From a virus, in IMG/VR virus record IMGVR_UViG_3300037502_001768, positions 1-39,652 of that record: a stretch of 39,652 bases of DNA; one strand, given 5' to 3'. A model generated the notes under the pieces. It had not been told where the DNA came from, did not search any database, and saw only the letters and a program-made list of their open reading frames with translations. Every line of letters starts with the position of its first letter. The stretch's first letter is position 1. This document shows, one piece after another, positions 8,259-30,439 of this stretch. The translations under genes were made by a program, and so were the position numbers.

Positions 8259-8888
8259 TCAAGCCGTCGATTGCTGAACAATGGTGAATCGCACAGATCC
8301 GTTGCCCGAATTGATCTTCAGGCGAACCGCACGCATCAGCGTCGTCGTGAAATGCGTCTCATCGCCAGACGCCGCCGTTAAGCTCGCCGCAGGATGCGGA
8401 ACCGCCAACTGCTGAATGTTCAGATCAAACGGATCTTCGTTCGTGTACTCAACCGAGTAGTTGACCGTGCCGCTCGTCTTGGCCGAAATGTTCGTGACCT
8501 GATTTGGCGTGTAGATATCAAGCGGAATCCAAGCCGTGTAACCCGGCACCGCGTTGCCTACGCTAATCGTCGCACTCGTTGGCGCATCCGCCACAATGCT
8601 CGAAACCGTCGCAAACGACAGCGAGCCAGTCACCGTTCCAGAAGCCGTCACCGCAACAGTTTCAGTCTGCGACGCGCCACCCGGAGCCGTGCCCGACACA
8701 ACAAAGTTCACCGCAGCCGAAGCTTCGCTAAACACCGTCAACTGCGCCGGAACCGTCAACGTGACAGATCCACCCGAAGCTAACGTACCGTCAATCGTAA
8801 TCGCACCCGAAGCATTCAGAAGCTGCTCGTTCGCAACGCTATCCGCATCTGCCGCCGGTTGTGATCTTGTAAAACTAATAGGACGCAT
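8259..8888 (-). CDS. Beta-rich virion protein, unknown function
   Basis: 209 residues, almost all predicted beta strand and rich in Thr, Ser, Ala and Val. The N terminus is MRPISFTRSQPAADADSVA. Segments such as GSVTLTVPAQLTVFSEASAAV and VSGTAPGGASQTETVAVTA look like Ig-like or bacterial surface beta-sandwich repeats. The C-terminal part (VRLKINSGNGSVRFTIVQQSTA) is a plausible last strand. It lies directly downstream of a terminator-like hairpin and upstream of the jelly-roll gene. Virion location is inferred from composition and neighbours. Confidence 0.65.
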   Translation of the reverse strand: MRPISFTRSQPAADADSVANEQLLNASGAITIDGTLASGGSVTLTVPAQLTVFSEASAAVNFVVSGTAPGGASQTETVAVTASGTVTGSLSFATVSSIVADAPTSATISVGNAVPGYTAWIPLDIYTPNQVTNISAKTSGTVNYSVEYTNEDPFDLNIQQLAVPHPAASLTAASGDETHFTTTLMRAVRLKINSGNGSVRFTIVQQSTA

Positions 8889-10296: not shown

Positions 10297-11211
10297 TTAG
10301 ACTCCAGCGGTTCCGAACACCGTTCGTGGGTCAGTCCAACCCACAGCGTAACGCTCGGTACTTTTAAACCTCGTCGAATCAGTCTCGAAGTCGCCTTCCA
10401 TTGACTTCTCAAGGCCGCGACGCATCATCAGCTTCAAGCCTTCCGGCGCGTCCGTCTTCACCCACCAAGCGGTGGTCGAGGTAAGACGCGAGAGGTTGGC
10501 CTGACCGCCAGCGAGGAGGCCCATCGACTTCACCGGGTTGATGTCGTTGTCGGCGGTGCCCGTACGGAGGACGCTCTTGAGGAGCACTTCCGCTTGGAAC
10601 ACGTTGGACGGCGACACAACGAGCTTCTCCGGGTTCAGGCGAATGCGCTTGCCGTTGTTGTCAACAGCGTTGCGAACCTGAATAAGGATCTGCTCAAGCG
10701 AGGTCTGGGACAACGCAGCCGGAGTGTTTAGCTGGTTGCTGAACGTACCGACCGCAATCGGATGGTTCGTAGCAACAAGCGGAACACCGTCGCCGCCGTT
10801 GAAGCCAGCCGTGAACGCACGGTTCAGGACGTTGGCGCAGAGGGTTTCCTTCGTTTCGATCAGCGACTGCGCCAAGTGCTTGGCATAGGTCTGGCCGATA
10901 CGGATGTGGTCACCATCTTCCACGAGCACCTTCGTGAGCGCGAATGCAAGGCCGTAGACCTTGTAGACGTAACGCTGCAAGAAGAGCACGCCACCAGCCT
11001 GATACGTGACCGGGGTGCCGTCCGGAAGTTCCGGAGCAGCGCCGAACCCGTACAGAACCGGCTCTTCGTGGTAGTTGCGGGGAATGCCCTGCTGCTGAAC
11101 GAAGACTTGCTTCCACTCGTCAGCACGCTGGTCATAAACGCCATCGAAAGCCTCATTAAGAATCGGCTCAACAATGGAACGAAAGTCAGTACTACGCATT
11201 GGGACTGCCAT
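10297..11211 (-). CDS. Major capsid protein
   Basis: 304 residues. The order (small terminase), large terminase, portal, co-chaperonin, scaffold, decoration protein, then this gene identifies it as the capsid subunit. RIRLNPEKLVVSPSNVFQAEVLLKS, LSRLTSTTAWWVKTD and the C-terminal RYAVGWTDPRTVFG are typical of HK97-fold major capsid proteins in this phage group. VNNNGK-like and TETKETLCANVLNRAF-like segments fit the spine helix and peripheral domain. There is no fused scaffold or protease, consistent with the separate scaffold gene. Codon choice is strongly C/G-ending (CTG AAC CCG), as in a highly expressed gene. Confidence 0.85.
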   Translation of the reverse strand: MAVPMRSTDFRSIVEPILNEAFDGVYDQRADEWKQVFVQQQGIPRNYHEEPVLYGFGAAPELPDGTPVTYQAGGVLFLQRYVYKVYGLAFALTKVLVEDGDHIRIGQTYAKHLAQSLIETKETLCANVLNRAFTAGFNGGDGVPLVATNHPIAVGTFSNQLNTPAALSQTSLEQILIQVRNAVDNNGKRIRLNPEKLVVSPSNVFQAEVLLKSVLRTGTADNDINPVKSMGLLAGGQANLSRLTSTTAWWVKTDAPEGLKLMMRRGLEKSMEGDFETDSTRFKSTERYAVGWTDPRTVFGTAGV

Positions 11212-20712: not shown

Positions 20713-21250
20713 ATTCCACTTCGTGCGCTTCGCCGTCGATCGTAATGCCGTGCGCGAGTCGTCCCGCTAGTTTGCTCACTACCTCAGTACGTTGCGCGAT
20801 TTCAATCGGGCCACCGTTCGCGCCGGTTAGTTCGACCGCGTTGCGTTCCGTGAACTTTCCCCCGCCTCTCGTTTTGAGCAAAAAGATTGCAGCGGTATCG
20901 CTTCCCGCCTTGGCACGTTGAGCGAGGGAACCGGCAATCTCGGAGACCATGTTCGATTGACCGTTCTTGAATTCGTAATCGTAATGCTCACGGACGGTCG
21001 ATTCGGATATGCGGAGCGCGTTACACACCATGTCCATGGTGAAGCCGGAGAACGACATCGTTGCGACGCTTTGCGCGATCATCGCATCGGGATGCTTACG
21101 ATTATCGTTTTTGGGAGATACAGCCCTAGTGGTGTAGTTCGCTACAACACCCTCTTTCGCATTTAAATCGTTTTTTAGCGGTTCAACCACTACCCCGCTA
21201 CCTACCCCGCTCCCCTGCTCTGTCGTCGCCTCTGGCGCTTTCTCTGTCAC
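20711..21250 (-). CDS. Terminase small subunit-like HTH protein
   Basis: 179 residues from a GTG at 21250 supported by GGAG 9 nt upstream. The N-terminal 50 residues are disordered. GFTMDMVCNALRISESTVRE (74-93) is a helix-turn-helix. AQRAKAGSDTAAIFLLKTRG followed by GGKFTER and VELTGANGGPIEI match the C-terminal part of small terminases and terminase-associated HTH proteins (a lone small-molecule-like LKTRGGW...E(V/L)TGxxGGPI pattern). It would recognise the packaging site and stimulate the large subunit. It is co-oriented with the large subunit but separated from it by the rightward cassette. An HTH regulator of another kind is the main alternative. Confidence 0.75.
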   Translation of the reverse strand: MTEKAPEATTEQGSGVGSGVVVEPLKNDLNAKEGVVANYTTRAVSPKNDNRKHPDAMIAQSVATMSFSGFTMDMVCNALRISESTVREHYDYEFKNGQSNMVSEIAGSLAQRAKAGSDTAAIFLLKTRGGGKFTERNAVELTGANGGPIEIAQRTEVVSKLAGRLAHGITIDGEAHEVE

Positions 21251-21785
21251 GTTTACGCGCTCCTTTGCTTAGCCCGTAGCCTATGGGGGATAAACCCCGC
21301 CCAAGTCGGGCCGATTCTAGCCCGTTCCTAATTTTTCAATTATTGCATAAGACCCAAAGGAAGAAAAGAACAAGCGTAAGTGACTGATTCTAAAGGAAAG
21401 ATATATTTTTTTCATTTATTTATTTCTTACTTCTATCCGCTCTTGTTAAAAGTTTTCCTCTTACCTTGCTACGCTTTCCTGTCTGTCTGTGGCTGAACCC
21501 CTAAGAAAGAATGAAATAAATGCAGGGATCAAGTTTAGCATTCAAAAAATCATTTAAAAATTAACAAGTTAAGACAGCAAACATCGTCCCTTTAAATTAC
21601 TTAACTCAAGCGAATTAGTGCATTTAATTCATAAGAAAAAAGCCCAAAACCGGCTCAATTTACCGACTCAAATAACACTCTCAAAATTAAAGGTATAAAA
21701 TATTTGAACTCTCTAAATTTGAGAGTACTATTCACATGGGCGAATACCCACCTAATCCACTTTTAGGCTACGGAGGATTTAAACG
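21251..21785. other. AT-rich non-coding region, candidate origin / control region
   Basis: No gene. It is visibly richer in A+T than the flanks and lies between leftward and rightward transcription. ACTCTCAAA (21677-21685) and TTTGAGAGT (21718-21726) form an inverted repeat, and ACTCTC (21708-21713) with GAGAGT (21721-21726) a second, overlapping hairpin around TAAATTT. A TATAAA box lies at 21694-21699 between them, without a good -35. CTATTCACA near 21729 is one base off a relaxed DnaA box. TTTAAA occurs at 21553, 21591 and 21778. A leading strand origin or early-promoter operator are both possible. Confidence 0.5.
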
Positions 21786-22100
21786 ATGGCTAACACGACG
21801 ATTTATCTAGACGCGCTTCTTCAGTTCGACCGACCGGCTTCAGTTAAAGAGGTGTACCAAAAGGCTCAGGAAATGTTCGGCCCCATGGTGAAAGGTGATC
21901 GGACTTCTGCTCGATCCTGTCTTGAGCGTTACTTGGGGACGGGGAAAGTAGTGAAAGAAAATGCGAGGTACTACGCCACCAAGGAAGCGGCTGATCCCAT
22001 TGGGGGGCTGTCTACTCGAATCAAAACGCTAGAGGTTGAAAACAAAAGGCTGCGCGATGAAAACGAGCAACTGCTGAAGCGATTGGAGGGTCAAATATAA
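21786..22100 (+). CDS. Winged-helix-like protein with C-terminal coiled coil
   Basis: 104 residues with a strong SD (GGAGG). Residues 1-65 (DALLQFDRPASVKEVYQKAQ ... SCLERYLGTGKVVKENARYY) read as a winged helix: two helices, a recognition helix and a wing ending in YYA. Residues 75-102 (STRIKTLEVENKRLRDENEQ) form a leucine-zipper-like coiled coil, implying a dimer. It is the first gene after the AT-rich region and probably a transcriptional regulator or origin-binding protein acting there. This is inference; no family was recognised. Confidence 0.6.
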   Translation: MANTTIYLDALLQFDRPASVKEVYQKAQEMFGPMVKGDRTSARSCLERYLGTGKVVKENARYYATKEAADPIGGLSTRIKTLEVENKRLRDENEQLLKRLEGQI

Positions 22101-22135
22101 ATTTACTTTCTATCCACCACGCGGTCGCTTGTGTG

Positions 22136-22164
22136 TTGACTCATGCAAGCGGCTTGCGTAGGAT
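22136..22164 (+). promoter_or_regulatory. Sigma70-like promoter
   Basis: TTGACT at 22136-22141, 17-nt spacer, TAGGAT at 22159-22164, about 37 nt before the ATG of the next gene. The spacer ends in GGCTTGCG directly before the -10, a feature shared with the cassette promoter at 19503. Confidence 0.6.
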
Positions 22165-22200
22165 AAGTCCCGACCACTCACAAAAACGGAGATAGCCAAC

Positions 22201-22437
22201 ATGACCCAAGCACAACAATTTCGAGACGTACTGGCGGCGCAATACCGCGAACTGTTCACGACTCCTGAGTACGCAATGGCGGCTGCGCGGATGACTCCCG
22301 AAGCATTGGCTACGCGCATGACGGACGGCCTCATTTCTGGGGCTGCAAGTAAAGACGGCGACGGTATCAAGCGCACTTGCAAGGCTCTCGGAATCAAGAA
22401 CACCTACGCCGCGATCAAAACCTATTTAAACGGATAA
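22201..22437 (+). CDS. Small helical early protein
   Basis: 78 residues behind its own promoter and an SD-like GGAGATAG. Helical throughout (MTQAQQFRDVLAAQYRELFT ... ISGAASKDGDGIKRTCKALG) and ends IKTYLNG. No family recognised. Immediate-early position suggests host takeover or regulation, but nothing in the sequence shows which. Confidence 0.6.
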   Translation: MTQAQQFRDVLAAQYRELFTTPEYAMAAARMTPEALATRMTDGLISGAASKDGDGIKRTCKALGIKNTYAAIKTYLNG

Positions 22438-22450
22438 GGAGAAAGCACAC

Positions 22451-22657
22451 ATGAACGACAAAGAGATTAGCCGCGAACAAATGATCGACGCTCTGGTATC
22501 AGAGTCCATCAACTACATACGCGAGTGCATGGAGCGGGGCGATGTTGCCTTGCTTGCGGATTACCTTTCGTACGGCTTTATCGGCTACGAAAAGATGTCC
22601 GACAGCGACTTGTTATGCGAATACGAATCTAACGTGAGCGAGGAGTTCGCGGTATGA
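22451..22657 (+). CDS. Small acidic early protein
   Basis: 68 residues (MNDKEISREQMIDALVSESI ... DSDLLCEYESNVSEEFAV), with SD AGGAGA. Acidic and helical; YIRECMERGDVALLADYLSY and the DxELxxEY-type end resemble small phage proteins often placed in early operons. Its leader and first codons nearly match those of the gene at 24335. Stop and next start overlap as ATGA. Confidence 0.6.
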   Translation: MNDKEISREQMIDALVSESINYIRECMERGDVALLADYLSYGFIGYEKMSDSDLLCEYESNVSEEFAV

Positions 22658-22839
22658 ACCGATTCAATCACGCATACACATTCGGGTTTTCTCTTGAAAA
22701 TAACTCCGAGGACGGCACGGCATCGGCTGAAGAATTACGACGGGCGATTATGCTTGCCGTGTCTGTGATGTCCGATACGGAACTGATGGAGAACTGCGGA
22801 TTTCCTTTTGATAGTTACGAGATTGAGGAGGCCGCATGA
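22654..22839 (+). CDS. Small acidic early protein
   Basis: 61 residues (FNHAYTFGFSLENNSEDGTA ... LMENCGFPFDSYEIEEAA). The N-terminal FNHAYTFGFSLENN reads like the edge of a beta sheet and the middle is a helix (SAEELRRAIMLAVSVMSDTE). Acidic; a Cys-containing ENCGFPFDSYE end resembles short phage proteins of unknown function. Overlaps both neighbours as ATGA. Confidence 0.6.
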   Translation: MNRFNHAYTFGFSLENNSEDGTASAEELRRAIMLAVSVMSDTELMENCGFPFDSYEIEEAA

Positions 22840-23105
22840 AAAAGCGCAAAGTCACCGACCGTTCCCCGTCCGACGTTGTTTCAATGGACAACGACATCAA
22901 AGTTTCAGCCCTGCTCACGACGGCTGCGATCATTACGAACCGCGACGAGGCATCGTTTTTCCTATCTAGCCTTGCCGAGTCGATCATCAACGCGATGCCG
23001 AAGGGCGCACAGTCTGGGGCCACCAAGTTGGTCAAAAAGGACGCGCTCAAACTCTTAGAAGCACTTGAAGGCAACGGCAAGCCAACCAAGAGGGCCAAAG
23101 CATGA
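22836..23105 (+). CDS. Small early protein, unknown function
   Basis: 89 residues. Basic ends (MKKRKVTDRSPSD, GNGKPTKRAKA) flank a hydrophobic helical core (DIKVSALLTTAAIITNRDEA, FFLSSLAESIINAMP). Not recognised. The start overlaps the previous stop and its own stop overlaps the next ATG, so it is part of a translationally coupled chain. Confidence 0.6.
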   Translation: MKKRKVTDRSPSDVVSMDNDIKVSALLTTAAIITNRDEASFFLSSLAESIINAMPKGAQSGATKLVKKDALKLLEALEGNGKPTKRAKA

Positions 23106-23194
23106 CCCCGACTGACTACGCAATTGCTTTAAACGCCGCTTACGCGCTTGGCTTCTTTGCCCTACTGGTCTTTATCTTTCGGAAACACCTATGA
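23102..23194 (+). CDS. 30-residue single-span membrane peptide
   Basis: A 30-codon frame, MTPTDYAIALNAAYALGFFA then LLVFIFRKHL, fills exactly the gap between two coupled genes, overlapping both as ATGA. One transmembrane helix (about 7-26) and a basic C-terminal end predict N-out/C-in insertion. Too short to assign. Holin-like or membrane-anchor functions are possible; it is immediately upstream of a methyltransferase gene. Confidence 0.55.
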   Translation: MTPTDYAIALNAAYALGFFALLVFIFRKHL

Positions 23195-23832
23195 AAAAGA
23201 TACAAATCAACCGTCGCACTCTATCGCGGGTCATCTGGGAGCAAGTGGGGCATCACTTCCCGCCCCCTGCGCTTCACCGACAACTGGATGCCTGTCAGGA
23301 CTTGCGCTCGACCGCCGACTACAACACCGGCTCCATTTCCGACACCGACGCAGAGGACTTGTACGGCATCGTTCGCTACTTTCGCCCCTTTATGGTCGCG
23401 GAGGTGGGGACGTTTATCGGTCGTAGCACGATGACCATGGCTCACGCGATGGAGGCGGGTAATGTGTATACCTGCGATGCCTCAAATGACATCACCCTGC
23501 CTACGGCTACCGGCTGCGAAACGGTCATTGAGCAATTCCCCCGCTCGACCTCGACCGAGATGTTTAAACGCTTGGTGGAGCGATCCGCGAAGGTGGATTT
23601 GTTTTATCTCGACGGGCGCATACCGGCAGATGACTTACCGCTCATTAACTCTCTGATGCACGATCAGTCGGTTTTTGTACTGGATGACTTTGAGGGCATC
23701 GAGAAGGGCGTCGCCAATGCCGCGATGCTGATGGGGAAACTGGGGCCGTACTACGTCTTGGTCTACCCCCGGGGCAACGGCAAGACCGCGATGATGCTCC
23801 CGAGAACGCTACTGGAATTTACGAACCAGTAA
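23191..23832 (+). CDS. SAM-dependent methyltransferase, Methyltransf_24-like
   Basis: 213 residues. Motif I EVGTFIGRST (71-80) begins the SAM-binding Rossmann fold, NVYTCDAS (91-98) supplies the ribose-binding acid D96, and VDLFYLDGRIPADDLPLINS fits motif IV/V of class I methyltransferases of the O-methyltransferase type. GSISDTDAEDLYGIVRYFRP before motif I is a substrate-side helix. No target-recognition domain or DNA-methylase catalytic motif (NPPY/DPPY) is seen, so a small molecule or sugar is the likelier substrate. It is coupled to the membrane peptide upstream. Confidence 0.7.
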   Translation: MKKIQINRRTLSRVIWEQVGHHFPPPALHRQLDACQDLRSTADYNTGSISDTDAEDLYGIVRYFRPFMVAEVGTFIGRSTMTMAHAMEAGNVYTCDASNDITLPTATGCETVIEQFPRSTSTEMFKRLVERSAKVDLFYLDGRIPADDLPLINSLMHDQSVFVLDDFEGIEKGVANAAMLMGKLGPYYVLVYPRGNGKTAMMLPRTLLEFTNQ

Positions 23833-23846
23833 CGACAAGCAATCCA

Positions 23847-24215
23847 CTACGACAAGTGTTTTAACTTGTAGAGCGCACTCAGGTAATGCGAAACGATCTC
23901 ATCAATGATGTTTTGGATGGCGGTTTCTTCGGGGGGACAAAAGTCATACCGGCCCTTCCCGATTCGCTCGACCTGATCTTCCAAAAACTCAACGAGGTTT
24001 CGGTTCTTCTCAGCAGACATGAGCGACACCGGACCCATGAGACCGTGCCGACCCTGCCAAGCCTCTGCAAAGTTATCCGCGAGTTCGGGCAGTCCCTCGT
24101 AAAACTTCTGGGTCGCTTTGTGAACCGCGTACGAGGACGTATTTAAATGCACCGAATGGGCAACGTCTCGTGCCAAGAAAAGGAGGCCAACGAAATCGGC
24201 GGCTTTCATGCTCAT
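23847..24215 (-). CDS. DUF5856-like helical protein, opposite strand
   Basis: 122 residues from the ATG at 24215. HLNTSSYAVHKATQKFYEGL and PELADNFAEAWQGRHGLMGP match my memory of DUF5856, a ferritin-like four-helix family in T4-like and other phages; H, E and Y positions fit a ferritin-type bundle (HxN, AxHKAxxxFY, LADxFAEAxQGRxG). It is the only leftward gene in the early region and carries its own divergent promoter. A TTG 24 nt upstream lies between the -35 and -10 boxes and is unlikely; an ATG two codons later is possible. There is no SD, and the -10 ends 6 nt before the ATG. Confidence 0.7.
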   Translation of the reverse strand: MSMKAADFVGLLFLARDVAHSVHLNTSSYAVHKATQKFYEGLPELADNFAEAWQGRHGLMGPVSLMSAEKNRNLVEFLEDQVERIGKGRYDFCPPEETAIQNIIDEIVSHYLSALYKLKHLS

Positions 24216-24221
24216 GGGTCT

Positions 24222-24250
24222 AGCGTAACCGTGAGGCAACGATTTTTCAA
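24222..24250 (-). promoter_or_regulatory. Leaderless-type promoter of the DUF5856-like gene
   Basis: Minus strand: TTGAAA at 24250-24245, a 17-nt spacer, TACGCT at 24227-24222, then six bases (AGACCC) and ATG at 24215. Transcription would start at or near the A of the start codon. The geometry matches the promoter before 19156. Confidence 0.55.
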
Positions 24251-24259
24251 TCTAGGGGC

Positions 24260-24288
24260 TTGCGCTCTTTCCCGGCGGGGCGTAAGTT
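24260..24288 (+). promoter_or_regulatory. Weak rightward promoter candidate
   Basis: TTGCGC (24260-24265), 17 nt, TAAGTT (24283-24288), back-to-back with the leftward promoter. Matches to consensus are poor. It is listed because a rightward operon restarts here with an SD at 24323 and no other candidate is visible. Confidence 0.3.
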
Positions 24289-24334
24289 AACCAAGCCGGT
24301 TGTTTAGTTCAACAGCATTCTTAGGAGAAAGCAC

Positions 24335-24502
24335 ATGAACGACAGACAAGAGATCGACGATGAATTGAACCGTGGCTACCGCGAATATGCGGAAGTTCAG
24401 GAAAAGTTGGAGGAGGTAGCCAAGATCGAGGCGCTCAAACTTCAGGCACAGGCCGAGAAGATGTTGTGGTCTTTCGATCAGTTCTTGCGGAAGGTGCTGT
24501 GA
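24335..24502 (+). CDS. 55-residue helical protein
   Basis: A 55-codon frame with SD AGGAGA: MNDRQEIDDELNRGYREYAE then VQEKLEEVAKIEALKLQAQA and EKMLWSFDQFLRKVL. It is one long charged helix, probably a coiled coil. The TGA overlaps the next ATG. Leader and first codons resemble those of the gene at 22451 (AGGAGAAAGCAC, then ATGAACGACA). Confidence 0.6.
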   Translation: MNDRQEIDDELNRGYREYAEVQEKLEEVAKIEALKLQAQAEKMLWSFDQFLRKVL

Positions 24503-24678
24503 TGTACGTCTGTAAGAATTGCAGTCGTGAGTTTGAAGAGCCGGAGCATATTGTCGAGCGCGAGATCATCGACTACGGCATCGGTCGCCAATGGGTGACG
24601 CTTTTCGAGGGCGACGTATGCCCTTACTGCGAATCCATGCACATTGAAGAAGCGCAAGAAGCGGATGAGGATGAATAA
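24502..24678 (+). CDS. Small zinc-ribbon protein
   Basis: 58 residues from the ATG at 24502 (a GTG 36 nt upstream lies inside the previous gene). CKNCSREFEEPEHIV and GDVCPYCESMHIEEA provide two CxxC knuckles about 30 residues apart, a zinc-ribbon. The C terminus is acidic (EEAQEADEDE). Such ribbons bind nucleic acid or protein; the role here is unknown. Confidence 0.65.
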   Translation: MYVCKNCSREFEEPEHIVEREIIDYGIGRQWVTLFEGDVCPYCESMHIEEAQEADEDE

Positions 24679-24985
24679 GCGTTGTCATCTTTGTGGCGTA
24701 GAGCATAAAGGCATTTGCCATGCACTGCGTCGCCCTAAGCGCAAAAAGGTACCGCCTGAAAAGGTGATTGAGTATCTGGAGCGGCAACGAGAACGCAATT
24801 TACTCCGCAAAGCACAAGCACTCATCAACGAACTGTGTGAGGTCATCGATGAAACCCGACGACAAGTCCGACGAGAGAGTCGAACGCCATACAAAGCCGC
24901 TAACAAAAGTCGAATGGCTTTGGGCAAGAATTGTACAAAGGCAGCGCGAAATACGCTTACTCGAAATGGAACTAAACAGGACTGA
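24671..24985 (+). CDS. Basic zinc-knuckle protein; 3' part overlaps another frame
   Basis: 104 residues from ATG 24671 (ATG at 24665 also possible). CHLCGVEHKGICHALRRPKR is a CxxC...CH metal site, followed by a basic helix (VPPEKVIEYLERQRERNLLR). The first 60 codons look normal, but beyond about 24850 this frame is dominated by CGA codons and low-quality residues, while the +1 frame becomes coding-like. So either two genes truly overlap for 137 nt or the frame shifts near 24845. The stop is followed 5 nt later by the next start. Confidence 0.45.
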   Translation: MNKRCHLCGVEHKGICHALRRPKRKKVPPEKVIEYLERQRERNLLRKAQALINELCEVIDETRRQVRRESRTPYKAANKSRMALGKNCTKAARNTLTRNGTKQD

Positions 24986-25031
24986 CCCCAATGAAATTTA
25001 TAAGCCGCCTGATTCAAAGACTGAATCTTAA
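24849..25031 (+). CDS. 60-residue overlapping gene
   Basis: ATG at 24849 with GAGG 7 nt upstream gives MKPDDKSDERVERHTKPLTK then VEWLWARIVQRQREIRLLEM and ELNRTDPNEIYKPPDSKTES. It is a normal-looking helical, charged protein with few rare codons, unlike the frame it overlaps. It overlaps the zinc-knuckle gene at its start and the 43-residue gene at its end. Function unknown. Confidence 0.5.
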   Translation: MKPDDKSDERVERHTKPLTKVEWLWARIVQRQREIRLLEMELNRTDPNEIYKPPDSKTES

Positions 25032-25122
25032 ATTTAACCGCGACTGGCGCTCCGTACCGGCTCCGAACTACCGCTGCTCACGGGGTAAACAGACCGACTG
25101 CAAACATGGAGATTACTGGTGA
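24991..25122 (+). CDS. 43-residue basic Cys-containing protein
   Basis: A 43-codon frame: MKFISRLIQRLNLKFNRDWR then SVPAPNYRCSRGKQTDCKHG and DYW. An amphipathic basic helix precedes a small Cys/His motif (YRCSRGKQTDCKHGDYW) that could bind a metal. Its TGA overlaps the GTG of the exported-protein gene. AGGA lies upstream. Function unknown. Confidence 0.5.
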   Translation: MKFISRLIQRLNLKFNRDWRSVPAPNYRCSRGKQTDCKHGDYW

Positions 25123-25430
25123 AAAAGATTATCGCAATACTGGCTCTTATGGCATCGGGCAGTGCGCTTGCACAAGAACTGCCGACGATCATTGGTTCCA
25201 TGAAAAACAAAGAGAACGGGCAGATCGTATTCACGACCGATCAGGGTCAGTGTCAAGAAGGCACACGGTTGGCCTACATCGAAGGCAGCGGGGGAAAGAT
25301 TTATCTCGTGGGCTGTTGGCGCAAAACCGACAACAAGGTGTTCGTGGTCTGGTCTGACGGGGACATTTTCTCGTACGACATTGAGAACATGAACTTCACC
25401 CGTGAGTGGATGGATTACAGCAACCGCTGA
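25119..25430 (+). CDS. Small exported protein
   Basis: 103 residues from a GTG in a GTGA overlap. MKKIIAILALMASGSALAQE is a textbook Sec signal peptide with an ALA-QE cleavage site after residue 18; no lipobox is present. The mature part has two cysteines (GQCQEGTR and LVGCWRK), likely a disulfide, and a beta pattern (IVFTTDQGQ, RLAYIEGSGGKIYLVG, KVFVVWSDGDIFSYDI). It probably acts in the periplasm or cell envelope of a Gram-negative host, for example against superinfection or on surface glycans, but this is inference from export and neighbours only. Confidence 0.7.
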   Translation: MKKIIAILALMASGSALAQELPTIIGSMKNKENGQIVFTTDQGQCQEGTRLAYIEGSGGKIYLVGCWRKTDNKVFVVWSDGDIFSYDIENMNFTREWMDYSNR

Positions 25431-25437
25431 GGCACCC

Positions 25438-25617
25438 ATGAGACACAAAGAATACATGATGGACCGTTTAAACGACGAGATCGAGATGCTCCGTCAAGAA
25501 AAAACGCGCATGCGGATGGAGTTTGACCATCAAGAGCGTGAGCGTGTCACGGGCGAAATCATCTTGTGCATTCTCATGTTCGCAGCAGGGTGGGCGTTGG
25601 CGTGGGCGCTGGTATGA
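25438..25617 (+). CDS. Coiled-coil protein with C-terminal membrane anchor
   Basis: 59 residues from ATG 25438 (SD TGAGG); a GTG 36 nt earlier is within the previous gene. Residues 5-38 are a charged helix (MMDRLNDEIEMLRQEKTRMR) and residues 41-59 a transmembrane segment (EIILCILMFAAGWALAWALV) ending at the stop. It is a tail-anchored type with the helix in the cytoplasm. It may tether the downstream enzymes or form a spanin- or holin-like part; neither is shown by the sequence. Confidence 0.6.
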   Translation: MRHKEYMMDRLNDEIEMLRQEKTRMRMEFDHQERERVTGEIILCILMFAAGWALAWALV

Positions 25618-25826
25618 AGATCGAAATCGACGTTGATATTGCAGAGCAGGTTACGGCTGTTGAACTCGCTCGAACGATGGCGAACTTGGTAGATGACTAC
25701 GAGAAGCGCAAGGCCGGAGCAGGGATAAGCATCTTTTACAAGAACAAGACCGAAGATCTAGCCGAAATCAAGCGCCACATCGACGCATTTAAATTGGTGG
25801 GGTTGTACTACGGGGTGAAGTTGTGA
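25614..25826 (+). CDS. Conserved small phage protein
   Basis: 70 residues from ATG 25614, overlapping the previous stop. MKIEIDVDIAEQVTAVELAR, then NLVDDYEKRKAGAGISIFYK and EIKRHIDAFKLVGLYYGVKL. The pattern ...LVDDYEKR...DKTEDLAEIKRHIDAFKLV..YYG is one I recall from several phage genomes, always without a function. Acidic strand at the N terminus, then helices. GTGA overlap with the methyltransferase gene. Confidence 0.65.
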   Translation: MKIEIDVDIAEQVTAVELARTMANLVDDYEKRKAGAGISIFYKNKTEDLAEIKRHIDAFKLVGLYYGVKL

Positions 25827-26530
25827 TCGATCCCAAAGCCCGTGGTGGTGTGCGCCGCTACTTGGACACCGTGAAGCCTGAGGAATACCTACCGGCAACG
25901 GGCGAGGTCAACCTTGGCGAACTGTCATTGACCGGCCTTGCGGATTTATTCGGCAGCGACAAGGGCAATATCAAGCACCGATACACGAAAGTGTACGAGC
26001 CGCTGATTCAAAAGATTTGTGAGGAGCAAGGGGACAATCGCAAGACCGCGCAGTTACACATTGCCGAAGCCGGTGTAGCGTGTGGCGCATCACTCCACAT
26101 GTGGTCGCATTACCTTCCTGACAGCGTAATCATTGGCTACGACGTACGTCCTGAGTGCGCCGAGTTGTGTCAAGACTTGGACAACGTGCGGATTGTGATT
26201 GGCGATCCGGCCAAGATGGGCGAACCGGACGACGCGCCGTTTGACGTGTTCATTGATGACGCGAGTCACATTTCTGAGCAGATTGTCGAGATGTTCAGAA
26301 ACTGCTGGCCATGGGTGCGCAGTGGCGGCTACTACGTCATTGAGGATCTGGGCTGCACCTACAGCGACGCGTACACCGAGCAGTTCCGCAAGCACTTTGA
26401 TACGAACGCTTTAAATTACCGGGCTACGTTTGTGCGAATGGTCGATCACTTGATGAAGTGTGTGGACACGCACAGCGAGATTGCCGAGATGAATTACTAC
26501 CCGCAGCTTTTGGTACTGAGGAAATTATGA
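25823..26530 (+). CDS. MycE-type sugar O-methyltransferase-like protein
   Basis: 235 residues from GTG 25823. LADLFGSDKGNIKHRYTKVY (39-58), AEAGVACGASLHMW (81-94; motif I), IIGYDVRPEC (103-112; ribose-binding D107), IVIGDPAK and FDVFIDDASH (140-149; metal/catalytic acids), then GGYYVIEDLGCTYSD. The order and spacing fit the MycE/macrocin-type family whose known members O-methylate sugars in a metal-dependent way. Next to glycosyltransferases this suggests it caps a glycan. GTGA and ATGA overlaps on both sides. The family is a confident pattern match; the substrate is inferred. Confidence 0.7.
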   Translation: MIDPKARGGVRRYLDTVKPEEYLPATGEVNLGELSLTGLADLFGSDKGNIKHRYTKVYEPLIQKICEEQGDNRKTAQLHIAEAGVACGASLHMWSHYLPDSVIIGYDVRPECAELCQDLDNVRIVIGDPAKMGEPDDAPFDVFIDDASHISEQIVEMFRNCWPWVRSGGYYVIEDLGCTYSDAYTEQFRKHFDTNALNYRATFVRMVDHLMKCVDTHSEIAEMNYYPQLLVLRKL

Positions 26531-26844
26531 GCGAGAGCCTGACTCCAACTGAATTTGATTTCATGTCGAAGCCTGAGAACAAAGAGGCCGAGTACGTGTG
26601 GTGCAAGATCAGCCCACAGGGTGGCTTGGAACTCTTTGACTGGGAGTTCGTTGAAAAGACGGCGCGTGAGTTTGACGCGATGGGTGAGGTAGCGCAGAAG
26701 AGCAACGCGCACATCATTTGCAAACTTGCCGTACTGATCCGTGAGCAGACGCTACTTCGGGCAGCGGAGGCCATCAAGCGCTATGCCGAGGTTCCCGCAG
26801 AGGCGACGGTCATTATGCTCAAAGACCCCTTGGAGGACGCATGA
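26527..26844 (+). CDS. Cassette protein, unknown function
   Basis: 105 residues from ATG 26527 (the open frame extends upstream into the methyltransferase but the ATGA overlap marks the start). SKPENKEAEYVWCKISPQGG, LELFDWEFVEKTAREFDAMG, then helical IICKLAVLIREQTLLRAAEA. No family recognised. Overlaps the first GT gene as ATGA and lies between a methyltransferase and a glycosyltransferase, so it probably belongs to the same pathway or simply to the operon. Confidence 0.6.
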   Translation: MSESLTPTEFDFMSKPENKEAEYVWCKISPQGGLELFDWEFVEKTAREFDAMGEVAQKSNAHIICKLAVLIREQTLLRAAEAIKRYAEVPAEATVIMLKDPLEDA

Positions 26845-27515
26845 GCCTGTTCGTGTTCTTTCATGTCGGTGCTGACATCTCGATGCCGACGAAGATGGTG
26901 AGTTCGCTCAAGGCCGTGATGCCGGATGCGGAAGTGGTGATGTGTACCGACGAGGCAACACCTGAAGTCCCGGGTGTGAGCTTGTTTAAACGCAGCCAAG
27001 GCAACTACGAGCAGTTGATGTACTGGCGTATGCGTGCGTTTGCCGAAGCTCGGATTACGCGCCCTGCCATGTACATTGATACGGACATGCTCTTTGTTTT
27101 GCCTGTTAACCCGGCTGCGATTCTGGGCGATAAGGAAGTGATCTTTTGTCGCCGTTCGTTTGATCGGGACGCGGGGTTCAACGGGGAGCAGCGCGATGGG
27201 ATCTTCAAGAAGTACCACGGCATCCCCTTGGGGACGCTTTACCCCTACCTTGGTTGTGCGACCGTGACCAAGAACTATCATGCGTGGAAAGCCATGGCGC
27301 TACTGATGGGGTTCATGGACCAAAACTTGCGCTCGTGGTACGGCGATCAAGAAGCCCTCAAGGTGTACTCGCACATGCTGTACCCGGAATTGGTGGGCGA
27401 GATGGAAGAGTTGGATTACGCGTGTCTGCCCGACAAGGCACCGGATGGGCATGTTCCTCACATTCTTCATTACAAAGGGGCAGCGCGTAAAAAACTATTT
27501 GAGGAGGCGTTATGA
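26841..27515 (+). CDS. GT-A glycosyltransferase-like protein 1
   Basis: 224 residues. The opening FVFFHVGADISMPTKMVSSL is followed by VVMCTDEATPEV, then RMRAFAEARITRPAMYIDTD with the DxD motif at 80-82 (metal and nucleotide-sugar binding), and FCRRSFDRDAGF. Late residues AVTKNYHAWKAM-like, WYGDQEALKVYSHM (a GDQ acceptor/catalytic loop typical of GT8 and related GT-A enzymes) and HILHYKGAARKKL fit the C-terminal HYxGxxKP-like motif of that fold. It transfers a sugar from a nucleotide donor. ATGA-coupled on both sides. Confidence 0.75.
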   Translation: MSLFVFFHVGADISMPTKMVSSLKAVMPDAEVVMCTDEATPEVPGVSLFKRSQGNYEQLMYWRMRAFAEARITRPAMYIDTDMLFVLPVNPAAILGDKEVIFCRRSFDRDAGFNGEQRDGIFKKYHGIPLGTLYPYLGCATVTKNYHAWKAMALLMGFMDQNLRSWYGDQEALKVYSHMLYPELVGEMEELDYACLPDKAPDGHVPHILHYKGAARKKLFEEAL

Positions 27516-27745
27516 ATGTTGCAGATAAGATTGGTCAATTGATTGAGCGGTTAGTCATGTTGGTCTTTGTGCTGACTGGGCTTTCCGTTGCCTTGGCGCT
27601 CAACTACGTGATGTGGAAGGGGTTAGTAAACTCCGACTTCTCGAATGTTCAAGAGCTTCGGCTTGTCGTGACTGCTCAGCAAGAGAAGATCAGCAAGATG
27701 GAGCAGGAAATTCAGTTTCTCGTCAGAGCCGAGGAAGTAGAGTAA
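27512..27745 (+). CDS. Membrane-anchored coiled-coil protein
   Basis: 77 residues. IERLVMLVFVLTGLSVALAL (11-30) is one transmembrane helix, and residues 45-77 (VQELRLVVTAQQEKISKMEQ) form a coiled coil ending in acid residues. Placed between two glycosyltransferase genes and coupled to the first, it may scaffold them at the inner membrane. Spanin- or Rz-like function is the alternative, but no lysin or partner is near. Confidence 0.6.
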   Translation: MNVADKIGQLIERLVMLVFVLTGLSVALALNYVMWKGLVNSDFSNVQELRLVVTAQQEKISKMEQEIQFLVRAEEVE

Positions 27746-27747
27746 TT

Positions 27748-28416
27748 ATGAAGGTATTCATTGGTTGGGACTCTCGTGAAGACATCGCCTATCAAGTGGC
27801 GCGAAAGTCCATGGAGTTACATTCATCCATCTCGCTCGACATCACTCCGATAAAGCAAAGTGATCTGCGCGAGCAGGGTATTTATTGGCGTGGGGTCGAT
27901 CCGTTCTCTTCGACGGAGTTCAGCTTCACGCGGTTTCTGACTCCATACCTCGCGGGGTATTCCGGCTGGGCCTTGTTTTGCGACTGCGATTTTCTTTTCC
28001 GGGGGGACATCGCGACTTTGCTTGACTACGCCGACGGGGCAAAAGCGTGCTTCGTGGTACCGCACGACTACCGGCCTACCGAATCGGTCAAAATGGATAA
28101 CAAGGCGCAACATCAATATCCTCGTAAGAACTGGTCGAGCTTTATGCTCATCAACTGTGAGCATGAACAAGTTAAGAAGCTCACGCCAGAACTGGTCAAC
28201 GTGGCGACGGGCATGTATCTTCACAGGTTTGAGTGGCTGACGGACGATGTGATCGGTCATCTGCCGATTGCGTACAACTACTTGGAAGGGTGGTACACCC
28301 GCAATGAGTGTCCGAACCCGATTGCCGTACACATGACCCGTGGGGGTCCGTGGTTCAACGACTGGACGCACGTAGAGTATGGCCGTGAGTGGATGGCTGT
28401 GGCGGCTACGATATGA
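27748..28416 (+). CDS. GT-A glycosyltransferase-like protein 2
   Basis: 222 residues from ATG 27748; the open frame runs upstream through the previous gene but lacks coding character there. MKVFIGWDSREDIAYQVARK is a common opening of GT8-like phage and bacterial glycosyltransferases. SGWALFCDCDFLFRGDIATL carries the DxD motif at 79-81, RKNWSSFMLINCEHEQVKKL is the acceptor strand, and EGWYTRNECPNPIAVHMTRG holds the HxTxGGPW donor-site loop. Overlaps the TPR-GT gene as ATGA. Confidence 0.75.
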   Translation: MKVFIGWDSREDIAYQVARKSMELHSSISLDITPIKQSDLREQGIYWRGVDPFSSTEFSFTRFLTPYLAGYSGWALFCDCDFLFRGDIATLLDYADGAKACFVVPHDYRPTESVKMDNKAQHQYPRKNWSSFMLINCEHEQVKKLTPELVNVATGMYLHRFEWLTDDVIGHLPIAYNYLEGWYTRNECPNPIAVHMTRGGPWFNDWTHVEYGREWMAVAATI

Positions 28417-29816
28417 GCAAGTACGCCAAGGTCATCAAGCAGATTGAGTCTGCTTTCCAAGCCAAGAAGTACAACGAGGCTTTGGATCTGTGCAACTACG
28501 CCATCTCGCTGAGCCCCAAGGACATTGTGCCGTATCGGGCCAAGGCTCGGCTCTTGCAGATTACCCGTGAGTTTGCCGAGGCCGAGAAGTATTACAACGC
28601 GGCTGAGAAGCGTGGCGCATTGACAGCGGATGATTTGGTTAACCGTGGCATCGTCAAGGGTGAGCAGCAGAAGTACCTTCAAGCCATTGAGGACTTCAAC
28701 AAGGCACTCGCTTTAAATCCGAAATATTTACATGCGCTGATTCAACGAGGGGCGTCTCAGTGGGAGATGCGTCTTTGGGATGAAGCGTACGAGAGCTTTA
28801 AATTGGCTAATGAAATCTCGCCTGATGATCCGAACGCGAACTGGATCTTGGGGTTGCTCGCCTTGCAGCGTAATGACTTCAAGACCGGCTGGCCGATGTA
28901 CGAGCGACGGTGGAAGAGCGAGCGGTTCAAGAGCAGACCTCTGGTCACGCAGAAGCCGCAGTGGATTCCGAACTCGGTGCTGAAGTCCGTATTGGTGTGG
29001 GGCGAACAGGGCGTCGGCGATCAGATCATTTATGCGTCGTTGTTACCGGCTGTGCGTAAGAGTGCTGACCGGGTGACGGCGATGATGGACCCGCGCTTGT
29101 TGAGCTTATTTAAACGCTCCATGCCGGACATTGATTTCGTGTCGCACTTGGACCCGATTCCCTCCGAGATGCACGACTCGCAGATTCCTTTTGCAAGCTT
29201 GGGCGGGTGTTTCATTGAGACGCTGGACGATTTAAACGCTCATGCTGCGAGGGCGTATTTGAAAGCCGACCCGGAGCTAATCGAGAAGTACCGTGCTGAG
29301 ACGGGCTTCACAAAGGATAAGCTGACGGTGGGCGTTACATGGGCTTCGAGCGCCATCAAGATTGGGCCGCACAAGTCGATCCGTATTGAGGAGATGAAAC
29401 CCTTCCTAAAGAACGACTATCAGGTTTTAAATCTGCAATATGGCAGCAGTAAGGAAGCGGTGGACAAGTTTAACCAAGACTTTGGTGCGAACATCGTGAC
29501 GACTTCGGCCAATCTGTGGAAAGACTTTGAATCCGTGGCGGCGTTATGCGCCATGTGTGATGTGATTGTATCGGTGAGCAGTTCGACCGTTCATCTTGCC
29601 GGTGCCTTAGGGGTGCCGGTGCTTTTGATGGATGCCAACAAGCTGTGGTACTGGGGAAACAAGAACGGTGACAACAGCGCGTGGTATCCGAGCGTCAAGA
29701 TTTTTCATCGAGAGAACATGCTTGCTCCGTGGGATAAGGTTGTGGAAGCAGTAACCAACGAGCTGGGGAGAATTGAACATGATCGACGATGTGAGCGAAC
29801 CGGGATCTTGGGATAA
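28413..29816 (+). CDS. TPR - GT-B glycosyltransferase fusion
   Basis: 467 residues from ATG 28413. Residues 5-150 are four or so TPR repeats (KYNEALDLCNYAISLSPKD, YLQAIEDFNKALALNPKY, LWDEAYESFKLANEISPDDP). WPMYERRWKSERF links to a GT-B part: VWGEQGVGDQI (195-205), VGVTWASSAIKIGPHKSIRI and SVSSSTVHLAGALGVPVLLM (387-406) with YWGNKNGDNSAWYP, as in GT9/GT41-like enzymes where TPRs bind the acceptor protein. Known relatives include O-GlcNAc transferase-like and heptosyltransferase-type protein glycosylation enzymes. So a protein acceptor is plausible, but LPS glycosylation is the alternative. The C terminus overlaps the next gene. Confidence 0.75.
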   Translation: MSKYAKVIKQIESAFQAKKYNEALDLCNYAISLSPKDIVPYRAKARLLQITREFAEAEKYYNAAEKRGALTADDLVNRGIVKGEQQKYLQAIEDFNKALALNPKYLHALIQRGASQWEMRLWDEAYESFKLANEISPDDPNANWILGLLALQRNDFKTGWPMYERRWKSERFKSRPLVTQKPQWIPNSVLKSVLVWGEQGVGDQIIYASLLPAVRKSADRVTAMMDPRLLSLFKRSMPDIDFVSHLDPIPSEMHDSQIPFASLGGCFIETLDDLNAHAARAYLKADPELIEKYRAETGFTKDKLTVGVTWASSAIKIGPHKSIRIEEMKPFLKNDYQVLNLQYGSSKEAVDKFNQDFGANIVTTSANLWKDFESVAALCAMCDVIVSVSSSTVHLAGALGVPVLLMDANKLWYWGNKNGDNSAWYPSVKIFHRENMLAPWDKVVEAVTNELGRIEHDRRCERTGILG

Positions 29817-29982
29817 GGAATTAAAGGCTGCGCCGTGGGGGTATGGGCAAGCCCAGTCCCAGCGGTTGCGTAATGCTCTAGCGGAGATACGCGCTAGGGG
29901 TTTATGGAGTGAAGCGGCAGTATTGGAACAAGAAATCCAAACGCTGCGGCGAGACTTGGAAGATGTAAGAGGACAGACATGA
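29779..29982 (+). CDS. Small helical protein
   Basis: 67 residues from ATG 29779 (SD GGGGAG, 7 nt). MIDDVSEPGSWDKELKAAPW then helical AQSQRLRNALAEIRARGLWS and VLEQEIQTLRRDLEDVRGQT. Amphipathic helices with a coiled-coil end, not recognised. It overlaps the TPR-GT C terminus by 38 nt and the next gene by ATGA. Confidence 0.55.
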   Translation: MIDDVSEPGSWDKELKAAPWGYGQAQSQRLRNALAEIRARGLWSEAAVLEQEIQTLRRDLEDVRGQT

Positions 29983-30161
29983 GTGAGAACAAAGATGCAA
30001 TCAGAGAATACCTCGCTACTATCGGAAGCCGAGGTGGAAGCGCTGCTAAAGGAGCTAAAAAGCGACGGCCTAAAGAGCATTACCAGAGAATGGCAAAGCT
30101 CTCCCTCGCCCGACGACGCGCAAAAAAGAAGGAAAAAGAAAATGGATCCGATCAATCCTGA
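29979..30161 (+). CDS. Small highly basic protein
   Basis: 60 residues. AIREYLATIGSRGGSAAKGA then KKRRPKEHYQRMAKLSLARR and RAKKKEKENGSDQS. The GSRGGSAAKGAKKRRP pattern recurs in small phage and plasmid proteins, likely nucleic-acid binding. Starts in an ATGA overlap. Its 3' end overlaps the DUF3310-like gene by 20 nt in another frame. Confidence 0.6.
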   Translation: MSENKDAIREYLATIGSRGGSAAKGAKKRRPKEHYQRMAKLSLARRRAKKKEKENGSDQS

Positions 30162-30357
30162 GCATTACAAGAAGGGTAAAATTGAGTGCATCGACGCCAT
30201 TAATTCGGCTTTGACCGAGGATGAGTGGCGTGGGTTCTTAAAAGGCACCGCGATTGCGTACTTATGGCGGCTTGGGCACAAGGACTCTGTGGAGCAAGAT
30301 GCCAACAAGACGCTGTGGTATGTCTCGTGGCTTGCGGGCAACGACCCGAGGAAGTAA
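30142..30357 (+). CDS. DUF3310 protein
   Basis: 71 residues from ATG 30142 with a purine-rich SD (GAAGGA). INPEHYKKGKIECIDAINSA then FLKGTAIAYLWRLGHKDSVE and DANKTLWYVSWLAG match the nucleotide-kinase-like DUF3310 family, small phage proteins seen in early regions. The conserved HY...ECID...F.KG.A..YLWR.GHK pattern is intact. An upstream in-frame extension of 53 codons lies in the previous gene and is rejected. It is the last gene before a terminator. Confidence 0.75.
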   Translation: MDPINPEHYKKGKIECIDAINSALTEDEWRGFLKGTAIAYLWRLGHKDSVEQDANKTLWYVSWLAGNDPRK

Positions 30358-30399
30358 ACTTCGGCCCGTGCTATCTCCTGTTCTCCTGTTATGGAGTTG

Positions 30400-30439
30400 C
30401 CCCGGAGTTGAGTGGTTAGTCTCCTCCGGGGATTTTTTT
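30400..30439 (+). terminator. Rho-independent terminator of the early accessory operon
   Basis: CCCCGGAG (30400-30407) pairs with CTCCGGGG (30424-30431) around a 16-nt loop and is followed by A and seven T residues. The T-run overlaps the stop of the convergent primase gene. No equal U-tract exists in the leftward direction. Confidence 0.9.

Follow-up and report, generated by a model that had tools for sequence, protein, structure and literature searches.

Freeman 2023 is reportedly the source cited for proven glycosylation of phage virions. In the accessible parts of two reports, such proof is given for a few mycobacteriophages only (PMC11256854, PMC12363180). With the virion glycosylation of Che8, Corndog and Myrna, the locus described here has phage-encoded glycosyltransferases in common. 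It is a six-gene cassette in the IMG/VR record IMGVR_UViG_3300037502_001768, which is classed as linear and was analysed over its entire length of 39,652 bases (hereafter, the window). The cassette encodes two putative methyltransferases (MTa and MTb), three putative glycosyltransferases (GTx, GT8 and TPRGT, the last carrying a tetratricopeptide repeat (TPR) solenoid) and a small conserved protein, gp104. We consider it very probable that these genes form a dedicated glycan-building pathway of the phage with an exchangeable sugar decoration, because in one lineage of relatives (lineage C) they are reordered and TPRGT is fused to GTx, and because tailoring genes are swapped among relatives.

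In the mycobacteriophages the acceptor is proven, whereas here it is proposed, and neither GTx nor TPRGT matches any mycobacteriophage record (tblastn, 1e-5). Relatives of MTb occur in 14 records; of three viewed, S-SCSM1 and the mycobacteriophage McProf have a glycosyltransferase adjoining it (a MycE-like methyltransferase in McProf, which resembles the cassette in this respect), and Cosmo has none annotated. The accessible text on FlmG of the alphaproteobacterium Caulobacter describes a TPR domain that binds flagellin in a cytoplasmic O-glycosylation pathway (PMC7591256). FlmG (596 amino acids) has an N-terminal TPR and a C-terminal GT-B domain, a layout shared by TPRGT (467 amino acids), the two being compared by layout and not by sequence. 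A precedent for MTb is found in the fibril clusters of Mimivirus and Megavirinae, which combine viral glycosyltransferases, sugar-making genes and a MycE-type methyltransferase (R132 of Mimivirus, described with conserved catalytic residues in the available part of PMC10117803). These are clusters of eukaryotic giant viruses that make their own nucleotide sugars, whereas no match to a sugar-nucleotide enzyme was obtained among the 10 cassette-region proteins scanned. The GT8-rich lipopolysaccharide (LPS) islands of pelagimyophages resemble the cassette in that the Pelagibacter phage Mosig has a relative of GT8 near two FkbM-type methyltransferases and another glycosyltransferase; they belong to different phages with another gene order, and Mosig has no match to TPRGT. 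GtrABC seroconversion cassettes likewise consist of phage-carried glycosyltransferases; unlike them, the window has methyltransferases, no flippase (GtrA) or GtrB family among the same 10 proteins (Pfam) and no tyrosine-integrase-family gene. We found no paper describing the gene set, the fusion or the swapping of genes in one slot, a weak negative as it covers the open-access literature only. A metatranscriptome study of Lake Baikal is said to mention a macrocin O-methyltransferase.

Enzymes of the cassette

All six genes lie on the plus strand and are open frames without internal stops, and the open reading frames (ORFs) named in a sequence-only reading of this DNA proved intact at the positions it gave. 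MTb (25823..26530, 235 amino acids) is predicted to be a MycE/TylE-type, metal-dependent sugar O-methyltransferase consisting of the catalytic domain only. It matches Pfam Methyltransf_24 (1.1e-5), demethylmacrocin O-methyltransferase (8ia9, 9e-14) and MycE (3ssm, 1.2e-9), and its profile matches 3ssm at 3.3e-13. Residues D145, D146, H149, E174 and D175 are invariant in 10 alignment rows and align with D294, D295, H298, E323 and D324 of the 3ssm chain. The metal and catalytic residues of MycE are given as Asp275, His278 and Asp304 in the accessible part of PMC9275233; D146, H149 and D175 of MTb would correspond to them provided that the 3ssm chain has 20 extra residues, an offset that we infer. 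The match is confined to positions 162-311 of the 397 in the 8ia9 chain, and in this comparison the N-terminal auxiliary domain of full-length MycE is absent from MTb. The matches and the conserved residues bear out the sequence-only reading, which had named a MycE-type sugar methyltransferase at this position.

MTa (23191..23832) had been read as a Methyltransf_24-like enzyme. Its match to that family (1.4e-5) holds, lying exactly at the Pfam cut-off, and its profile matches the O-methyltransferase 3tr6 (5.5e-6), so that the assignment is a weak one; no phage record was matched by tblastn. MTa stands beside or near glycosyltransferases in all three lineages defined below and may be a second, auxiliary tailoring enzyme.

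GTx (26841..27515) matches no Pfam family (E up to 1, hence no Glyco_transf_8) and no PHROG, and tblastn against phage records gave no match. As the profiles of GTx and GT8 gave chance-level matches only against the PDB (WbbM at 0.1 for GT8), the structure of GTx was predicted. The AlphaFold model (predicted local distance difference test (pLDDT) score 92.1) has a GT-A fold that matches glycogenin (Z 16.2 over 193 residues) and the PBCV-1 capsid glycosyltransferase 2p73 (Z 15.2 over 183); fold matches differing by less than 1 in Z were counted as tied. D80-T81-D82, WYGDQE (166-171) and H210, K212 and G213 (an HxKG motif) are invariant in 21 rows, D80 and D82 forming the DxD motif. On the model, GTx is a glycogenin-like GT-A glycosyltransferase. 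GT8 (27748..28416) belongs to phrog_28018 (1.9e-57), annotated 'unknown function'. Its residues D79, D81, H195 and G199 are invariant in 27 rows, among them five unrelated phages, and it is probably a GT-A (GT8-like) glycosyltransferase with alphaproteobacterial kin. Two DxD glycosyltransferases had been proposed here; the model upholds the one at 26841, and the one at 27748 has the invariant pair D79/D81 and the PHROG match, yet its Pfam GT8 match is below threshold.

TPRGT (28413..29816) matches Pfam TPR_1 (6e-12) and, below threshold, Pfam GT9 (18.2 against 22 bits). The AlphaFold model (pLDDT 89.7) shows a TPR solenoid (residues ~1-174) followed by a GT9-type GT-B domain (~186-460), in agreement with the TPR and GT-B fusion seen in the sequence-only reading. 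The nearest structures to the GT-B domain are 3tov, a GT9 enzyme (Z 16.8 over 255 residues), and 1psw, heptosyltransferase II (Z 16.4 over 254).

From 25438 to 29816 the genes form a single run, in which neighbours overlap by 4 bases except for one 2-base gap. The coupling claimed over 6.7 kb holds for this run and does not extend to MTa, which ends 1,286 bases before the gene at 25119. The run includes gp104 (26527..26844), missed in the earlier listing of cassette genes; among 82 viral loci, many of which are partial, 51 keep its ORF, and it accompanies the cassette in lineages A and C. When the six genes were compared with those of a relative (L034), dN ranged over 0.10-0.35 and dS over 0.98-3.45; four pairs with another relative (L021) were similar. 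Each of the 10 gene pairs has a dN far lower than its dS (which is near saturation in several), so that the six genes are under purifying selection.

Linkage, gene order and fusion

Viral relatives of GT8 were found at 398 stretches, of GTx at 329 and of TPRGT at 116, the best 80 of each being kept; all 66 of MTb were kept. The 251 viral loci, found with patterns built from the cassette proteins and so mostly near relatives, form 77 near-identical groups (shared 60-mers), of which 46 were placed in lineage A, 9 in lineage B and 9 in lineage C, with 13 unassigned. Membership of lineage A required that TPRGT follow GT8, and that of lineage B that GTx and MTa be encoded on opposite strands; the presence of those genes there is thus a matter of selection.

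Homologues scattered singly with unrelated neighbours would speak against a common system. For MTb this was not seen: 61 of its 66 loci include GT8, GTx or TPRGT, and in the remaining five the contig breaks off within MTb or shortly past it, although in one of them (L217) the 6 kb on the other side hold none of the three. For GT8 it was seen in part, as 13 of the 77 groups, many of them short contigs, show GT8 accompanied by few other cassette genes or none. In lineage A, the type of the window, the order is MTb-gp104-GTx-GT8-TPRGT, followed by a gene that we take to be DUF3310-like and by primase; four loci (L036-L039) have gp104 and GTx in exchanged order. Of the 46 groups of this lineage, 24 extend at least 4 kb upstream and 2.2 kb downstream of GT8, and in these GT8, TPRGT and gp104 are present in 24/24, GTx in 23/24, and MTb, a TylF-type gene or both in 21/24. 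Counted over all groups, gp104 occurs in 38/46 of lineage A, 9/9 of lineage C and 0/9 of lineage B, where GTx and MTa stand head to head, GT8 is present in seven groups and MTb in three.

Lineage C has the order MTa, TPRGT, GTx, GT8, gp104, MTb, with all six families in 9/9 groups; the cassette is followed in one locus (L207) by a family A DNA polymerase, and in the one record lacking TPRGT (G016) the contig ends inside the gene. Its proteins are 41-44% (TPRGT), 43-48% (GTx) and 60-70% (MTb and GT8) identical to those of the window, and a portal 33% identical to that of the window was found in 2/6 records. TPRGT and GTx form one ORF of 623-649 residues in all 12 loci showing both (at most 9 near-identical groups); a thirteenth locus is cut by its contig end. 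The first two thirds of the fused ORF match TPRGT from residues ~63-79 to 451-456 with 40.9-43.6% identity, so the TPR part appears shorter in lineage C, and the last third matches GTx at the identity given above. The fusion of TPRGT and GTx in one branch, together with their adjacency or closeness in another, is strong evidence that they serve one pathway. An explanation of the linkage by frozen gene order alone was considered and rejected, given the other order and the fusion in lineage C.

Exchangeable tailoring genes

Among the 24 well-flanked groups of lineage A, MTb stands alone in 15, a TylF-type gene takes its place in 5, both are present in 1 and neither in 3. Three of four TylF-type ORFs scanned exceed the Pfam TylF cut-off and all four also match Methyltransf_24; their profile found nothing in the PDB at 0.001. 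Two loci (L058 and L152) have, instead of GTx, a 279-residue ORF, a hexapeptide transferase and a DegT/DnrJ/EryC1 aminotransferase (4.7e-86 in L058, 3.7e-89 in L152). L152 has neither MTb nor TylF in its available DNA, and L058 starts too close to gp104 to tell. Pairs of aminotransferase and acetyltransferase make N-acetylated amino sugars. Constant transferases with swapped tailoring genes thus fit a glycan with a variable outer sugar.

The variable region surrounding the cassette looks like a hotspot of gene exchange. In two relatives without MTb or TylF (L036:7418-8802 and L037:352-1736), an ORF lies upstream of GTx which in L036 matches 4Fe-4S just above the cut-off and radical-SAM below threshold, and which is presumably QueE-like; another upstream ORF of 265 amino acids, without a Pfam match, may be DpdA-like. 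Deazaguanine modification of DNA is therefore possible in these two. Further ORFs of the region (L010:1560-2168, L046:5419-6489, L049:5443-6489 and L043:134-985) we take by eye to be DNA-methyltransferase-like or PAPS-reductase-like.

Relatives in other phages and in bacteria

Relatives of GT8 were found in 18 phage records, five neighbourhoods of which were viewed. Besides Mosig, DLP_6 has the relative near a methyltransferase and a glycosyltransferase, and the podovirus ctDrO704 combines it with a methyltransferase and a relative of TPRGT (8.5e-43) between the genes for the major capsid and 'phage stabilization' proteins. In CcrColossus it stands with a GT9 and a sialyltransferase-like gene after a tail gene, with no methyltransferase; in S-SCSM2R it is accompanied by a carbohydrate phosphorylase and genes for synthesis of 3-deoxy-D-manno-octulosonic acid (KDO), and no other glycosyltransferase or methyltransferase is labelled.

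Bacteria yielded at least 552 relatives of GT8; the best 80 of these are all alphaproteobacterial according to their record titles, the top ones being 54-62% identical. Among these 80 loci, a relative of TPRGT lies near GT8 in 10, and relatives of GTx, MTa and MTb in none. A tree built from 51 GT8 rows places the three phage lineages together (89/86) beside the bacterial group (93/92), both branches being short of the strict mark; L152, a row of lineage A, is set apart from the others of its lineage. One bacterial locus (L301) has GT8 and TPR-glycosyltransferase genes beside those for an ABC transporter, HlyD (of the type I secretion kind) and UDP-galactopyranose mutase, as checked with Pfam, and the ABC transporter is also present in L345. 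This pairing was observed in Rhodospirillales-type relatives (L301:2713-9969; L345, L299), where it is possibly a bacterial protein-glycosylation cluster.

Proposed pathway and acceptor

The enzyme classes, the catalytic residues, the co-inheritance across rearranged lineages, the TPRGT-GTx fusion and the tailoring-gene swaps were all computed. The sequence-only reading had the phage build and cap a glycan on its virion or on the host envelope; of this, the conserved glycan cassette with its MycE-type methyltransferase stands, and the acceptor is a matter of proposal. In the pathway that we propose, the TPR solenoid of TPRGT would bind a protein acceptor and the GT9-fold domain would attach or extend the first sugar, to which GT8 and GTx would each add one more. 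The chain would then be capped through O-methylation of a sugar by MTb (in relatives, by the TylF-type enzyme), with a second methyl group possibly coming from MTa. The acceptor would most likely be a structural protein of the phage that receives its sugars in the cytoplasm, ahead of assembly; virions would then carry a short methylated glycan with a cap differing among relatives. A protein acceptor, most likely of the virion, is favoured because of the TPR-glycosyltransferase design, as in FlmG, and because no tyrosine-integrase-family gene was found in any of 9 records (the window and its kin), in a search confined to this integrase type whose control rang in 14/14 genomes; where no integrase is known, the simplest choice of acceptor is a protein of the virion. 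Also in favour are ctDrO704, with its TPRGT relative between capsid and 'phage stabilization' genes, the TPRGT relatives close to GT8 in 10 of the 80 bacterial loci (L301 among them), and the precedent of proven virion glycosylation in other phages. Taken whole, that the cassette builds a short methylated glycan on a phage structural protein is plausible to us, at slightly under an even chance.

Several points weigh against this proposal. We infer the order of the steps, the donor sugars and the acceptor; TPR domains bind many partners; and the class of GT8 rests on sequence, its match to Pfam GT8 being below threshold (E 0.089; 12.8 against 24.3 bits). The surveys began from cassette genes, so that linked cases are favoured, and TPRGT was found in 0/5 lineage B or GT8-only records searched, which may be fragments. 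In lineages A and C, moreover, the cassette lies among early or replication genes and not among structural genes, and in 13 of the 80 best bacterial loci the relative of GT8 has a KdtA-like neighbour (Pfam-checked in L324).

The last two points also speak for a different acceptor, namely the LPS of the host, whose core or O-chain would be modified in the infected cell, on the cytoplasmic side of the inner membrane; the methyl cap would stop growth of the chain or mask a receptor, limiting superinfection or the loss of progeny to debris. The adjacency of GT8 relatives to a KDO transferase in Alphaproteobacteria makes this a serious rival, and GT8 and GT9 families are common in LPS synthesis; the GT-B domain of TPRGT matches heptosyltransferase II. 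GT8 genes of pelagimyophages have also been proposed to alter the host O-chain, in the accessible part of PMC7029224. On the other side, neither a lipid-carrier transferase nor a flippase or GtrA-like protein was found among the 10 proteins scanned, nothing points to a lysogen, to which lasting seroconversion would be of use, as the 9 records lack a tyrosine-integrase-family gene, and a TPR solenoid fused to a glycosyltransferase would be unusual for an LPS enzyme. On balance LPS is a possible acceptor, though somewhat less likely than a virion protein.

Improbable in our judgement is a third acceptor, a surface protein of the host (flagellin, pilin or a type I secreted protein) whose glycosylation would block phages that use it as a receptor. 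The FlmG architecture, known from an alphaproteobacterium, and the pairs of GT8 and TPR-glycosyltransferase genes beside transporter, HlyD and mutase genes in L301 agree with it; the phage gives no direct sign of a host protein partner.

Pyle 2024 is said to report that phage glycosyltransferases can hypermodify DNA. That the enzymes build a sugar on modified phage DNA bases as a defence against restriction is nevertheless very unlikely: the glycosyltransferase adjoining the McProf methyltransferase has a weak match to a TET-associated glycosyltransferase family (0.0011, below threshold) and two relatives have the putative QueE-like and DpdA-like ORFs described above, but a thymidylate-synthase-family gene (PF00303), a usual source of hydroxymethyl bases and in T4-type DNA glucosylation the gene for hydroxymethyl-pyrimidine synthesis, was found in 0/7 possibly incomplete records, with a control that rang in 9/14 genomes, and MycE- and TylF-type enzymes are known for sugars and are not known to act on bases. 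A search for TET/JBP dioxygenases found none in the 7 records, though no control rang.

Returning to the virion, we tentatively suggest, as a conjecture more doubtful than the pathway itself, that small podophages, known from environmental DNA, with a TPR-guided glycosylation machine of their own coat the virion in a short glycan, the outer sugar of which is swapped (with a MycE-type methyl, a TylF-type methyl or an acetylated amino sugar) around constant GT8-like and TPR-glycosyltransferase enzymes, a phage counterpart of bacterial surface-antigen variation. If this is true, phages vary their own surface sugars, or else rewrite those of the host, by means of a compact cassette of podoviruses that turn up in many environmental records. 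Its notable traits are the fused TPR-GT9-GTA enzyme and the exchangeable sugar-capping genes, in a system of six genes that can be tested. The cassette likewise hints at what phrog_28018 does, and at the role of GTx, for which neither Pfam nor PHROG offers a name.

Phage type and other features of the window

Judged by its sequence, the virus is a podovirus, and the record is probably a fragment, because five relatives run to 55-58 kb. PHROGs labels in the window include terminase, portal, head, primase, RusA, Sak4, SSB, Cas4-type exonuclease and helicase. The major head protein is probably the one encoded at 10297-11211, and a candidate for a large tail protein lies at 2019-4427. The portal is 57.8% identical to those of the Caulobacter phages RW, KcrB, RLK and GB2A, the nearest named relatives by this protein, and 24-46% identical to those of 14 further phage records. 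Phage RW (62 kb) has no TPRGT anywhere, and the six cassette genes are absent from the 50 of its 62 kb that were compared (tblastn). At the DNA level, 22800-30400 matched none of 50,697 phage records. An old phage line with an alphaproteobacterial host is likely. For HTVC023P-type phages, which are portal relatives of the window, the available text of PMC9599517 notes three glycosyltransferases as possible modifiers of DNA or protein.

A signal-peptide protein (start 25119) and small membrane proteins (starts 23102, 25438 and 27512; 30 amino acids for the first and 77 for the last) had been counted as part of the system in the sequence-only reading. The signal-peptide protein and the 77-residue membrane protein were rejected as members, being hardly conserved: neither is among the ORFs kept in at least 5 of the 82 viral loci. 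No link to the system was shown for the other two; the ORF containing the 25438 protein is kept in 15/82, and the protein at 23102 is below the length limit of this test. The interval after MTa contains small ORFs and, on the minus strand, a DUF5856 gene (23847..24239; PF19174, 6.8e-20), which is kept in 27/82 loci and probably lies outside the glycan pathway. In some of lineage A it adjoins MTa on the opposite strand, and in lineage B the two genes share a strand and overlap (in L212, for example, 8285-8653 runs into the MTa end); MTa may therefore have its own partner.

In one relative (G002), an ArdC-like anti-restriction protein with a zincin-like metallopeptidase domain is encoded at L094:15158-16081 (7.5e-31, 9.4e-46). 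ORFs at both ends of that record, beside virion genes (L093:1-351 and L095:17410-17810), we take by eye to be 2-oxoglutarate/Fe(II) oxygenase-like; hydroxylation of virion proteins is possible. In the window, TTTAAA is 3.4-fold over-represented (31 sites against 9.0 expected from dinucleotides), with 17 of the 31 sites within 21162-29426 (8.3 kb, the cassette included), and the 6-mers TCGTAA and CGTAAT are equally enriched.

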